A DNA stretch of 15,244 bases, from positions 1-15,244 of the forward strand of contig JAHJSF010000010.1 of the NCBI GenBank assembly GCA_018830405.1, read 5' to 3'. This stretch comes from Nitrospinota bacterium (lineage in GTDB: Bacteria; Nitrospinota; Nitrospinia; UBA9942; JAHJSF01). Shown here one piece after another: positions 8,057 through 12,812 of the stretch (positions within the stretch are counted from its first letter, which is position 1; each line of letters opens with the position of its first letter). A program made the translations under genes and the position numbers. Below the pieces are notes generated by a model. It was not told the origin of the DNA and did no database searches. It saw only the letters and a list, made by a program, of their open reading frames with translations.

Positions 8057-8533
8057 GTGATAGATATAAAGACGTTAGACTGTTTGTTGCCGGGTGAAAG
8101 GGGCACTATTGTTAAGGTGGGGGGAGGCCATTCTTTGCACCAACGTATATTGAGCATGGGTATTACGGGGGGGACAGAGGTTGAGGTGGAACGGATGGCC
8201 CCATTGGGTGATCCGATTGAGATAAAAATTCTAGGGTATCATCTCTCCCTGCGGCGTGAAGAGGCCAAGGAAATATCTGTAGAGGTGAATATGATTAAGA
8301 AGGGGGCAATCCCCTTGATGAAGGCCAAGTCGGGGGATATGCTGGAGATTGTTTTTATGGATGGCGGGGAAGAATTTCAGGCCAGGTTGGCCGAGATGGG
8401 ACTTGAAAACGGAACAATGTTTAAACTATTGCATGCCGGAGCAGAGGGGCCGGTGACCATATTGGTCGGCGGGAGCGAACATCTTCTCGGTTGGGGGATG
8501 GTTAAAAAGATATTTGTCAGGAAAGCCGATTGA
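8057..8533 (+). CDS. feoA: Tandem-domain FeoA protein, ferrous iron transport
   Basis: A 158-aa protein made of two FeoA SH3-like domains, where classical FeoA has one (about 75 aa). Domain 1 (1-77) has LLPGERGTIVKVGGG, RILSMGITGGTEVEVERMAP and the end pattern GDPIEIKILGYHLSLRREEA. Domain 2 (84-156) has LMKAKSGDMLEIVFMDGG, RLAEMGLENGTMFKLLH and LVGGSEHLLGWGMVKKIFV. FeoA is a small cytosolic partner that supports FeoB-driven Fe2+ import. GTG 8057 is used as start; AGGTG lies 5 nt upstream, and a stronger TAGGAG is further away. It follows fur by 26 bp on the same transcript. feoB lies only after an inserted repeat element. Confidence 0.9.
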   Translation: MIDIKTLDCLLPGERGTIVKVGGGHSLHQRILSMGITGGTEVEVERMAPLGDPIEIKILGYHLSLRREEAKEISVEVNMIKKGAIPLMKAKSGDMLEIVFMDGGEEFQARLAEMGLENGTMFKLLHAGAEGPVTILVGGSEHLLGWGMVKKIFVRKAD

Positions 8534-8621
8534 AATACCACTGCTCCAAGCGATTTATAATTGAGTCTTCGCGTAATCGAGCGGCGAAGAAGGCCGCGTG
8601 CGGGCCGCCAAAACCGAAACG

Positions 8622-8667
8622 TGTCATTCCCCATGACACCCCCATGTCATTCCCCATGACACCCTCA
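8622..8667. repeat. 23-bp tandem repeat made of short TIR fragments
   Basis: Two 23-bp units start with TGTCATTCCCCATGACA, itself a perfect inverted repeat (TGTCAT/ATGACA). They differ at one base and directly precede the left end of the GIY-YIG element, whose end CGTCATTCCCC falls in the same 23-bp register. Confidence 0.85.
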
Positions 8668-8668
8668 C

Positions 8669-9041
8669 GTCATTCCCCAGCTTGACTGGGGAATCCAGAG
8701 AATATGGAAAAGAATTTTTATGTCTACATAATTAGCGAGTAAGAGAAACGGAACATTGTATATTGGAGTAACTTCTAATTTGATAAAGCGTGTTTGGGAG
8801 CATAAAAACAAATTAGCAGAAGGGTTTACCAAAAAATATAGCGTAAATCAACTTGTTTATTATGAACAGTATCAAGATGCGGAGAATGCAATCAAGAGAG
8901 AAAAAAGGCTGAAGGATTACAATCGTAAGTGGAAATTAGAGCTTATTGAGAAGCTGAACCCAGATTGGAAAGATTTGTATGAAGAGATACTTACTGGATT
9001 CCCCAGTCAATCCCCCGGTCAAGCCGGAGGAGGGGAATGAC
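8669..9041 (+). mobile_element. TIR-bounded element carrying a GIY-YIG nuclease gene
   Basis: The left end GTCATTCCCC...TGACTGGGGAATCCAG (8669-8698) has its reverse complement at the right end CTGGATTCCCCAGTCA...GGGGAATGAC (8994-9041). The right arm has about 18 extra bases in its centre. The 5-bp gap after the left repeat is followed by the nuclease start, and the nuclease stop codon lies within the right repeat. So the gene fills the whole element. It sits between feoA and feoB. Gene-less copies with the same ends are at 12592-12690 and 13272-13328. I see no transposase and no target-site duplication. Confidence 0.75.
8704..9040 (+). pseudogene. GIY-YIG nuclease-domain protein, frameshifted near the N-terminus
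   Basis: Reading from ATG 8704 gives MEKNFYVYII, then meets a stop at TAA 8740. Skipping one base near 8734 restores ASKRNGTLYIGVTSN and a 111-aa protein of normal length for small GIY-YIG (YhbQ/UPF0213-like) proteins. Present motifs are Y-V-Y-I and L-Y-I-G (the GIY and YIG strands), the arginine in NLIKRVWEHK and the catalytic Glu region AIKREKRLK. NPDWKDLYEEI follows at the C-terminal end. The last residues, TGFPSQSPGQAGGGE, and the stop are encoded by the terminal inverted repeat. An internal TTG (8756) could start a shorter product without the first GIY strand. The shift may be a real mutation or a sequencing error. Confidence 0.8.
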
Positions 9042-9044
9042 GGG

Positions 9045-9059
9045 AATAAGGGGGGTTGT
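9045..9059. repeat. Partial REP-like unit
   Basis: AATAAGGGGGGTTGT matches the right end of the 12339-12382 palindrome (AATAAGGGGGTTGT) with one added G. It is probably a truncated copy next to the GIY-YIG element. Confidence 0.5.
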
Positions 9060-9138
9060 AATCGGGGAGCGGGGGGATGCAAGTAAAATATAAACAATAT
9101 TGGAATATTTTTAATTAAATCTGTTTTCGGGGACAGGG

Positions 9139-11295
9139 ATGAGTAATAGTCTAACCAAAAAAATAAAGATAGCCTTGGCGGGGAATCCCAATGCCGGCAA
9201 GTCGACCATTTTTAACCTGCTGACCGGTTCGCACCAGCATGTAGGCAACTACCCCGGTGTTACGGTTGAAAAGAAGATCGGCCACCTCTCTTACAAGGAA
9301 TACAGTATCGAGGTTATCGATCTCCCCGGTATATACAGTATGACGGCCCACTCCCTTGACGAGGTGGTGGCCCGTAATTTTCTTGTCTATGAGAAACCTG
9401 ATGTTGTCATAAATGTTGTTGATTCGTCAAATCTTGAGCGCAACCTCTACCTGAGTACCCAGATTATAGAGATGGGGGTTCCTATCCTCTACGCCTTTAA
9501 TATGTATGATGAGGCCCAGGAGCAGGGGCTGATTATCGACAAGGATATCCTGGCCAGATTTCTTGGCGGCCCCATTGAGTTTACTATTGGAATTAAGAGG
9601 GAGGGGAAAGAGAGTCTTCTTGATAGGGCGATAGAGATAGTTGAGGGGAAAATAGACTATCCTAAGGCCAGAATAGGCTACGGGAAGGAGATTAATGAGG
9701 AGATAGATAAGATAGAGACCCTCCTCCTTGGGGACGAATCCCTCAGGCAGACATACCCGACACGCTGGCTGGCCATAAAGATGCTTGAGCAGGATAAGGA
9801 TGTTTTGAAGATTATCGAAGGGGCTGAGGAGAGGGTTGCTATTGCGGGGCAGCTGGAAAAGAGTCTGGCCTATATTGAGGGAATATTTGATGACCGGGCC
9901 GGGGCCATTATCGCCGAGAGGAGATATGGCTTTATAAGCGGCGCCTGTTCTGAGGCGATCAGAAAAAATTATGAAGTGCGCCATAACCTGTCGGATAAGA
10001 TAGATTCTGTTCTGATCAACAGGGCCCTTGGGCTGCCAATCTTTCTCTTCCTTATGTGGGGAGTGTTCAAGCTTACCTTTGCCCTGAGCGAACCGATGAT
10101 GAGGGGGATAGAGTGGACTGCAAGTTGGCTGGGGAGGGGCATCGCCCAGTTGTTGCCCAAGGGGAGCCCTATTACCTCTTTCATTGTTGATGGGGTGATA
10201 GGAGGGGTTGGCAGTGTCTTAACCTTTGTTCCGATTATATTTCTCCTATTCTTTGCCATCGCTATTCTGGAAGATTCCGGCTATATGTCCCGCGGGGCCT
10301 TTATTATGGATCGGCTGATGCACAAGATGGGGCTGCACGGCAACTCGTTCATCCCTCTCTTGATCGGTTTTGGCTGTAACGTTCCGGCTATCATGGCGGC
10401 CAGAACAATAGAGGATAAGCGGGGGAGATTGATTACTATTCTCATAGCCCCCTTTATGAGCTGTGGGGCCAGATTGCCAATATATATCCTATTGATTGGG
10501 GCCTTTTTCCCCAAAGAGATTGCGGGGGATATTATCTTTTCCCTCTACATGGTAGGGATGCTCGTGGCCGTCATCGTGGCCAAGATATTGCGAAAATATA
10601 TACTGAAAGGACCGGTCACCCCCTTTGTTATGGAACTCCCCCCCTATCGAATGCCGACCATGAGGGGACTTTTGGTCCATGTTTGGGATAGGGGAGGGGC
10701 CTATCTGAAAAAGGCTGGTTCACTTATCTTACTCGGATCAATAATTGTTTGGTTTATCAGCAATTTCCCCTGGAATCCTCTCTACAGCAGGGATTATCTT
10801 AAAGAGATGGAGACTGTTCGTGGTGATGAAGTTGCCCTGGCGCGGGTAGAGAATGAGATGGCCAAAGAGAAGCTGGAAAAGAGTCTGGCCGGAAGGTTTG
10901 GTAGGTTGGTTGTCCCAATCTTCAGGCCGCTCGGACTTGAAGATTGGAGGGTTCCGGTAAGCCTGGTCGGCGGGGTAGCGGCCAAAGAGATAGTTGTATC
11001 TACTATGGGGACATTATACTCGGTTGGTGAGTCTGATGCCGAATCAGCCTCACTAAGGGAGAATCTTCGCCGGGCGAGGACAGCTGAGGGGCGGAATGTC
11101 TATACACCCCTTTCTGCCTATGCCTTGATGATCTTTGTTCTCCTCTATTGCCCCTGTTCCGGCGTTATCGCCGTAACAAGAAAGGAGACCGGGTCATTTG
11201 CCTGGCCAATCATTATGATAGGCTACACCACGACTATCGCCTGGTTACTCGCCTTTGTTGTCTACCAAGGGGGGAGTTTGCTTGGCCTTGGCTGA
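9139..11295 (+). CDS. feoB: FeoB, GTPase-coupled ferrous iron transporter
   Basis: A protein of 718 aa imports Fe2+ across the inner membrane. The N-terminal G domain shows G1 GNPNAGKS (15-22), G2 GVTVE (40-44), G3 DLPG (61-64) and G4 NMYD (121-124). The G5 region reads TIGIKREG, without the usual Ser-Ala. A helical GDI-like region spans about 180-280. The membrane part begins near residue 296 and has the two gate regions. Gate 1 includes EDSGYMSRGAF (377-387), GFGCNVPAIMAARTIED (409-425) and APFMSCGARLPIY (436-448). The C-terminal half has SLVGGVAAKEIVVSTMG (607-623) and LLYCPCSGVIAV (667-678). Start ATG 9139 follows GGGGACAGGG. An element inserted between feoA and feoB may have altered their co-transcription. 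No feoC is seen. Confidence 0.96.
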   Translation: MSNSLTKKIKIALAGNPNAGKSTIFNLLTGSHQHVGNYPGVTVEKKIGHLSYKEYSIEVIDLPGIYSMTAHSLDEVVARNFLVYEKPDVVINVVDSSNLERNLYLSTQIIEMGVPILYAFNMYDEAQEQGLIIDKDILARFLGGPIEFTIGIKREGKESLLDRAIEIVEGKIDYPKARIGYGKEINEEIDKIETLLLGDESLRQTYPTRWLAIKMLEQDKDVLKIIEGAEERVAIAGQLEKSLAYIEGIFDDRAGAIIAERRYGFISGACSEAIRKNYEVRHNLSDKIDSVLINRALGLPIFLFLMWGVFKLTFALSEPMMRGIEWTASWLGRGIAQLLPKGSPITSFIVDGVIGGVGSVLTFVPIIFLLFFAIAILEDSGYMSRGAFIMDRLMHKMGLHGNSFIPLLIGFGCNVPAIMAARTIEDKRGRLITILIAPFMSCGARLPIYILLIGAFFPKEIAGDIIFSLYMVGMLVAVIVAKILRKYILKGPVTPFVMELPPYRMPTMRGLLVHVWDRGGAYLKKAGSLILLGSIIVWFISNFPWNPLYSRDYLKEMETVRGDEVALARVENEMAKEKLEKSLAGRFGRLVVPIFRPLGLEDWRVPVSLVGGVAAKEIVVSTMGTLYSVGESDAESASLRENLRRARTAEGRNVYTPLSAYALMIFVLLYCPCSGVIAVTRKETGSFAWPIIMIGYTTTIAWLLAFVVYQGGSLLGLG

Positions 11296-12574: not shown

Positions 12575-12591
12575 ATAGGAGGGGTTGGAAG

Positions 12592-12690
12592 TGTCATTCC
12601 GCATCCCCGATTAAAGCATTCGAGGACATGCTTGATGCGGAATCCAGTTCTTGTTTTTTCTGGATTCCCCAGTCAAGCTGGGGAATGACA
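12592..12690. mobile_element. Gene-less TIR element (MITE-like), same family as the GIY-YIG element
   Basis: It starts TGTCATTCCGCA, ends TGGGGAATGACA, and contains GGAATCCAG (left) and CTGGATTCC (right) around a 12-bp T-rich centre (ttcttgtttttt). Each arm is itself a hairpin: ATTCCCCAG/CTGGGGAAT on the right, and CATTCCGCATC/GATGCGGAAT with a longer loop on the left. This is the layout of the 8669-9041 element without its nuclease gene. It reads as a non-autonomous derivative. Confidence 0.75.
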
Positions 12691-12812
12691 TGTGCGGAGA
12701 GATTTGAAATATTTTCTGCTTTTCTCCCTTTCCTGCTCGTCCAAGAAAGGGAGGAAAACCATTTAATTACAAAGGGCGCTGAGAGTGAACATCAACGGAC
12801 AAAAGTGATATT

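Follow-up and report, generated by a model that had tools for sequence, protein, structure and literature searches.

Between feoA and feoB of a Nitrospinota bacterium, a gene for a small GIY-YIG nuclease is framed by two inward-facing palindromes, each consisting of CGTC, a hairpin and CCAG. The same arrangement recurs at homologous genes in many bacterial phyla, where protein subclades pair with palindrome families. We consider it very likely that this association, the orientation of the palindromes and the pairing of protein and repeat are real. The framed unit is probably a decayed autonomous mobile element, with the gene-less palindromes as its non-autonomous relatives. The window, i.e. 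the whole stretch of 15,244 nucleotides that was analysed, is one (C51) of the 185 contigs of a draft genome of 1.42 Mb that is 87% complete.

The element between feoA and feoB

The element spans positions 8668-9042 (about 375 bp). Its left end, on the forward strand (8668-8698), reads CGTC (8668-8671)-ATTCCCCAG-CTTGA-CTGGGGAAT-CCAG (8695-8698), with a stem of 9 bp, the loop CTTGA and the tail CCAG. Judged by its sequence, its inverted repeat and its copies in the genome, this is a palindrome of the CGTC-tagged REP type, with an unpaired CGTC end, an A-T stem start, a loop of 5 and a CCA tail. The right palindrome (8994-9042, reverse strand), recognised by sequence and inverted repeat, faces the left one and is imperfect; it reads CTGG (8994-8997)-ATTCCCC...GGGGAAT-GACG (9039-9042). 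The terminal inverted repeats that the original prediction had placed around the gene are real: the arms 8682-8705 and 8987-9010 are 24 nt long and 88% complementary, further inverted arms lie at 8665-8678 and 9032-9045, and each end of the element is a palindrome in its own right. In Rfam, no family was found at the gathering score for the region 8500-9150. Inside 8668-9042 there was no DDE transposase gene and no HUH plus Tyr transposase, the sole encoded protein being GIY-YIG (PF01541).

The gene itself (8704-9040, forward strand) is present as a single, frameshifted copy with one internal TAA, as seen from its translation and the Pfam match. Its ATG at 8704 lies 6 nt past the left palindrome, and the right palindrome encodes the last 15 residues (TGFPSQSPGQAGGGE) together with the stop codon TGA (9038-9040). 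This overlap had been predicted and was borne out by sequence and translation; the nearest homologues (L048-L051) show the identical coding overlap. Read through the frameshift, the protein matches PF01541 with an E value of 7e-15. An intact gene filling the element, as had also been claimed, could not be maintained, because a +1 frameshift near 8730 had been overlooked. The frame from ATG 8704 ends at a stop at 8740-8742, and relative to homologues there is an extra A at about 8730 (8730-8731, forward strand; ACATAATTAGC here versus ACATATTAGC in L019 and other homologues). Homologues show an uninterrupted frame across this point. In the window, the open frame does not begin before TTG 8756 and lacks the GIY strand, so that the first catalytic Tyr is cut off. 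This copy is either a pseudogene or an assembly error.

The GIY-YIG protein is a single domain of ~95 amino acids, encoded at an intergenic location. No NUMOD or other DNA-binding domain and no intron or intein location was found for its gene, and NCBIfam gave no curated family at the cut-off for the protein. An alignment of 40 homologues showed the catalytic Tyr, Tyr, Arg and Glu (Y9, Y20, R30, E67) to be invariant, together with an Asn, a Trp and an Asp in the C-terminal part. The palindrome-framed subfamily additionally shows a conserved C-terminal NPxWxDLY motif. An AF2 model of a homologue reached a pLDDT of 89, and its nearest structures were UPF0213 (1zg2) and Slx1. Slx1 is a nuclease that cuts branched DNA. 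A natural reading of this model would be a nuclease of the Slx1 lineage that acts on the hairpins or cruciforms of the palindromes. At three other loci (L127, L120 and L067), GIY-YIG proteins extend into the palindrome and gain repeat-encoded tails like ...SSVVPAQAGTQ...LDSRIRGNDG.

Regarding the surroundings, feoA with two FeoA domains lies upstream (8057-8533, forward strand, PF04023, E 8e-35) and feoB downstream (9139-11295, forward strand, PF02421/TIGR00437). The distance from the feoA stop at 8533 to the feoB start at 9139 is 605 nt, compared to a gap of 6 nt in the second feo operon of the source genome. This second operon is the only comparable site; in more distant relatives feoB has other neighbours. 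The element had been proposed to split feoA from feoB, and it is indeed located between both genes, but the insertion is not clean or precise, as further intergenic DNA surrounds it (134 nt on one side and 96 nt on the other). The former includes two 23-bp tandem copies, TGTCATTCCCCATGACACCCCCA and ...CCCTCA (8622-8667, forward strand, a direct repeat), each of them half a palindrome and both immediately outside the left end.

Facing palindromes and protein subclades

A scan of one-per-species genomes yielded 80 homologous loci from many phyla. As controls, equally spaced windows were taken at displaced positions of these loci. An inverted-repeat score of at least 14 between left and right flank was reached at 44 of the 80 loci versus 5 of 547 displaced windows. 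Strict palindromes were then defined as GTC, a stem of 6-10, a loop of 3-9 and CCA, facing the gene. These were present on both sides at 31/78 loci (displaced windows, 0/668) and on either side at 51/78 (displaced windows, 21/668), whereas the opposite orientation on both sides was seen at only 5/78. When flanks of mismatched loci were combined, 67/800 reached the score of 14, a background above that of the displaced windows because unrelated bacteria share similar palindromes; the displaced windows are the cleaner control. Hairpins were also gathered at the 80 loci without a tag requirement. Here, CGTC 5' and CCAG 3' of the stem emerged, and the hairpins numbered 57 and 67 per 80 flanks versus 18 per 136 controls. 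Loops of 4-5 predominate. Stems vary widely among loci and the tags and the hairpin are constant, which would fit a recognition of structure and tags together.

Some taxa showed other arrangements. In the case of Neisseria gonorrhoeae, the palindromes near the gene do not face it in the usual way. Two sequences of this species that are listed as plasmids in PLSDB (NZ_CP119140.1 and NZ_CP119142.1, 2.17 Mb) resemble chromosomes in their size, with one GIY-YIG copy amid dRS3-like palindromes. In the case of Sinorhizobium (L180, L185), the gene is flanked by nested-palindrome blocks with a CCTC instead of a CGTC tag and with many copies on the replicons; an alignment of these long blocks gave no boundary information. 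In a phage search, the sole GIY-YIG matches came from Rhizobium phages and were distant (34-36%).

The pairing of proteins and repeats was followed in 100 relatives of the source genome, with palindrome types read in 200-bp flanks. Four GIY-YIG subclades and four palindrome families could be identified: CATTCCC, which is the group of the window, CATTGCGAG, CATTCTGAG (mostly) and CACCCTGAG. A YhbQ-like branch showed no palindromes in its flanks. The window protein falls outside this branch, in a separate palindrome-carrying one, and the earlier label 'YhbQ-like' is consequently right only in part, the YhbQ-like proteins being those without repeats. GIY-YIG copies without such flanks had been named as a sign of an accidental association; the subfamily mostly keeps its flanks, and the copies without them form the separate YhbQ-like branch. 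Mapped onto the protein tree, the palindrome labels required 15 changes versus 38.8 when shuffled, in an alignment of only 95 columns where near-copies add to the clustering. Some single genomes contain several subclades side by side.

Copy numbers followed the same pattern. A count of 5 or more for the matching palindrome was reached in 7/7 genomes with one subclade versus 3/93 without it (Fisher p 7e-9), in 9/14 versus 11/86 for a second (p 1e-4) and in 7/9 versus 5/91 for a third (p 2e-6), p values that are optimistic because the genomes share kinship. Mismatched pairings of subclade and palindrome were weak or absent (all p >= 0.036). The CATTCCC palindrome also occurs in four drafts of 74-93% completeness without a detected matching nuclease (G063, G093, G126, G132). 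Three of these are rich in CATTCCC copies (64 in G126, 19 in G132 and 25 in G093); their nuclease may have been lost, missed in the draft or supplied otherwise. In the class of G079 the picture was mixed: each of two gene-less congeners contains 4 palindromes versus 25, and two other gene-less genomes have 64 and 19. A further observation concerns the genome G022 (C1:634627-636020, L152), where three identical GIY-YIG copies form a tandem array (period 562 bp) in which every copy has its CATTCTGAG palindrome, a local amplification.

Gene-less palindromes and occupied sites

In the source genome, the pattern TCATTCCCC-N3-12-GGGGAATC occurs in 17 copies and a looser form in 32, versus 0 for the reversed-pattern control in both cases. 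Many copies have an inverted partner nearby, so that the family consists of dispersed singles and inverted dimers, the pairing being judged on individual loci. A GIY-YIG gene of this type was found in one copy in this draft. The expectation of many copies of inverted repeats plus gene was therefore not borne out, and the multicopy part is the palindromes (17-32). The gene is framed by a palindrome family that is present elsewhere in the genome, which is a REPtron-like organisation.

Two loci without a complete gene could be compared directly to the element. Within the window, a REPIN-like palindrome pair at 12590-12691 (reverse strand), identified by pattern match and flanks, reads TCATTCCCCAGCTTGACTGGGGAATCCAG-spacer-CTGGATTCCGC...GCGGAATGACA and shares 97% identity with the element's left end. 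Elsewhere in the source genome, the derivative C148 consists of the left palindrome, the 3' end of the gene (...NWKDLYEDIITGF) and the right palindrome. It matches positions 1-42 and 296-334 of the element side by side, with the junction CCAGA, a motif found in both the left tail and the gene, and it keeps 39 nt of the gene just before the right palindrome. Because this pair includes a conserved piece of the gene, it descended from a gene-bearing unit. The genome G030 combines two complete copies with about 28 solo palindromes and at least one decayed copy (C81) that retains both ends.

Presence and absence at otherwise conserved sites was seen in other genera. In Azospirillum lipoferum 4B, the gene with palindromes on both sides lies between sufB and sufC in a gap of 617 nt, whereas in three relatives that are 94-95% identical this gap measures 87-129 nt and contains no element. 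In Sphingobium, the unit lies between fnrL and a response regulator gene in three aligned strains and is wholly absent in TYG72. The strains TYG64 and TYG74 have a solo palindrome at this site, GTC-ACCCCGGG-TCAAG-CCCGGGGT-GAC. This is not a normal GTC...CC palindrome, and its sequence is that of a full unit after deletion between a pair of 8-bp repeats. In these comparisons of occupied and unoccupied sites, the flanks were too diverged and no target-site duplication or exact junction was found.

Three Bradyrhizobium species have the element at one shared place, which shows that vertical inheritance over long times is possible; a strain-level move in this genus was considered and rejected, as the three closest copies are orthologous. 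In Rhizobium tumorigenes, the gene was present in all eight near-identical plasmids, with no unoccupied site among them. Rhodopseudomonas (L215) and a related Bradyrhizobiaceae MAG (L219) share a neighbouring region and have related elements on its one and its other side, respectively, possibly as the result of a short-range move. Altogether, the recurrence in many phyla, the subclade-specific repeats, C148 and the presence or absence at sites elsewhere support well the earlier suggestion of a nuclease-linked repeat family that is not a standard IS.

The nuclease as a candidate mobilising enzyme

Palindromes of this type were defined as CGTC-tagged palindromes by Di Nocera et al. (2013), including dRS3 of Neisseria and RPE-4 and RPE-6 of Rickettsia (PMC3733652). 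According to that work, they occur in at least five phyla, apparently without a dedicated transposase; none was found flanked by them, and it was suggested that their enzymes may be extinct (PMC3733652). GIY-YIG is not mentioned there (PMC3733652), a 2006 survey of GIY-YIG proteins does not mention palindromes (PMC1564403), and enzymes that mobilise repeats are not a subject of the 2025 RepRanger survey (PMC12306157). No earlier link between GIY-YIG and palindromes was found in open-access PMC full text; preprints and subscription journals lie outside this corpus, and priority is uncertain.

We think it rather likely that the GIY-YIG nuclease mobilises these palindromes, and it is the best candidate for the missing enzyme of the CGTC-tagged family. 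The repeats described here agree with that family in the CGTC tag, a stem starting with AT, a loop of 4-5, a CCA tail and the mixture of dispersed singles and inverted pairs. They differ from the published account in that a gene is framed and that protein subclades pair with palindrome families (PMC3733652).

A first alternative is that the palindromes are the target: a homing-like selfish GIY-YIG gene would cut pre-existing pairs and insert between them, and another agent would spread the palindromes. GIY-YIG domains are known in homing enzymes, gene-less pairs are common, some genomes have palindromes and no gene, and in Sphingobium TYG64 and TYG74 a palindrome occupies the place where other strains have the gene. 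However, this last palindrome is the expected deletion product of a full unit, and C148 holds the 3' end of the gene, so at least that pair came from a gene-bearing unit. Start and stop codons within a few nt of the palindromes or inside them, the lack of a NUMOD or other DNA-binding domain and the tracking of the protein subclade by the repeat families also speak against pre-existing targets, and we consider this explanation unlikely.

It is similarly improbable that the nuclease merely travels along as a passenger or serves the host in maintenance. RAYT-like or other transposases would then move the palindromes, and the gene would either ride between them or be under selection because it processes palindromes where they block replication. 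Repair is indeed a function of structure-selective nucleases in the Slx1 lineage, and some genomes retain palindromes although no matching nuclease was detected. However, no transposase flanked by CGTC palindromes was found (PMC3733652), a passenger leaves unexplained why there is one palindrome family per subclade and why several subclades share one genome, and for a host gene both the palindrome framing and the presence or absence in otherwise conserved operons would be unexpected. Finally, mere coincidence, i.e. a plain YhbQ-like gene in the neighbourhood of repeats that are frequent between genes, with the right palindrome past the stop codon as a possible terminator, is very improbable, and as a general explanation for the flanks it is refuted by the displaced windows (facing palindromes on both sides at 31/78 loci versus 0/668) and by the palindrome-free YhbQ-like branch.

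The arrangement is organised like a RAYT/REP system, with an unrelated enzyme. As in RAYT, GTAG-REP and REPIN systems, there is one framed gene, usually at single or low copy, short unpaired tags and many solo or paired non-autonomous copies. In contrast to RAYTs, which are IS200/IS605-related tyrosine transposases, the protein is an unrelated GIY-YIG of ~95 amino acids without HUH or Tyr, and the tags are CGTC...CCAG and not GTAG. With GIY-YIG homing endonucleases such as I-TevI it shares the catalytic domain family and the association with mobile DNA; unlike these, it is a minimal domain without NUMODs, intron or intein, located at scattered unrelated sites and framed by palindromes. UPF0213/YhbQ and prokaryotic Slx1-like proteins (1zg2, 1ywl; Slx1 6seh) have the same minimal fold and size and are the nearest solved structures, yet the YhbQ-like branch of our sample lacks the palindromes, and the framed subfamily carries the conserved NPxWxDLY motif. 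In Penelope-like retroelements, a GIY-YIG nuclease likewise cuts DNA for a mobile element, but these are eukaryotic, much larger and encode a reverse transcriptase, a partner that is not present here (PMC3846280).

By analogy to RAYT, the nuclease would cut the palindromes, transpose the element and act in trans on solo palindromes, presumably by cutting the hairpins at their tags. In such a mechanism, palindromes would become single-stranded or extruded, e.g. at a replication fork, and the nuclease would recognise the unpaired GTC/CCA tags together with the hairpin or branched DNA and nick there. A point against this scheme is that DNA hydrolysis by GIY-YIG nucleases involves no covalent intermediate, and another activity must therefore join the strands. 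Enzymes of host replication and repair could copy or paste the hairpin-bounded segment at another place. The gene-bearing unit would move itself and supply the nuclease in trans to solo palindromes, as RAYT does for GTAG REPs, and internal deletions at microhomologies would turn gene-bearing units into elements with two palindromes or one.

We know of no role for GIY-YIG as a stand-alone mobility enzyme in bacteria. More tentatively, at somewhat under even chances, the lone minimal GIY-YIG may represent a new class of bacterial mobility enzyme that acts on hairpin or cruciform DNA and whose subclades made and still spread several of the commonest intergenic palindromes of bacteria, the CATTCCC/dRS3-like, CATTGCGAG, CATTCTGAG and CACCCTGAG families, as non-autonomous elements of one system. 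For annotators, the terminal peptides of such proteins may be repeat-encoded and derived from palindromes. The pairing of subclade and palindrome turns the question of the missing transposase into a direct biochemical one on a protein of 95 residues. If confirmed, this enzyme class would have a new stand-alone mobility role in bacteria and account for a large share of intergenic repeats, and a nuclease with a 30-nt hairpin would be a simple pair for studying selfish repeats in genomes. If the nuclease is sufficient for movement, the system would merit its own class.
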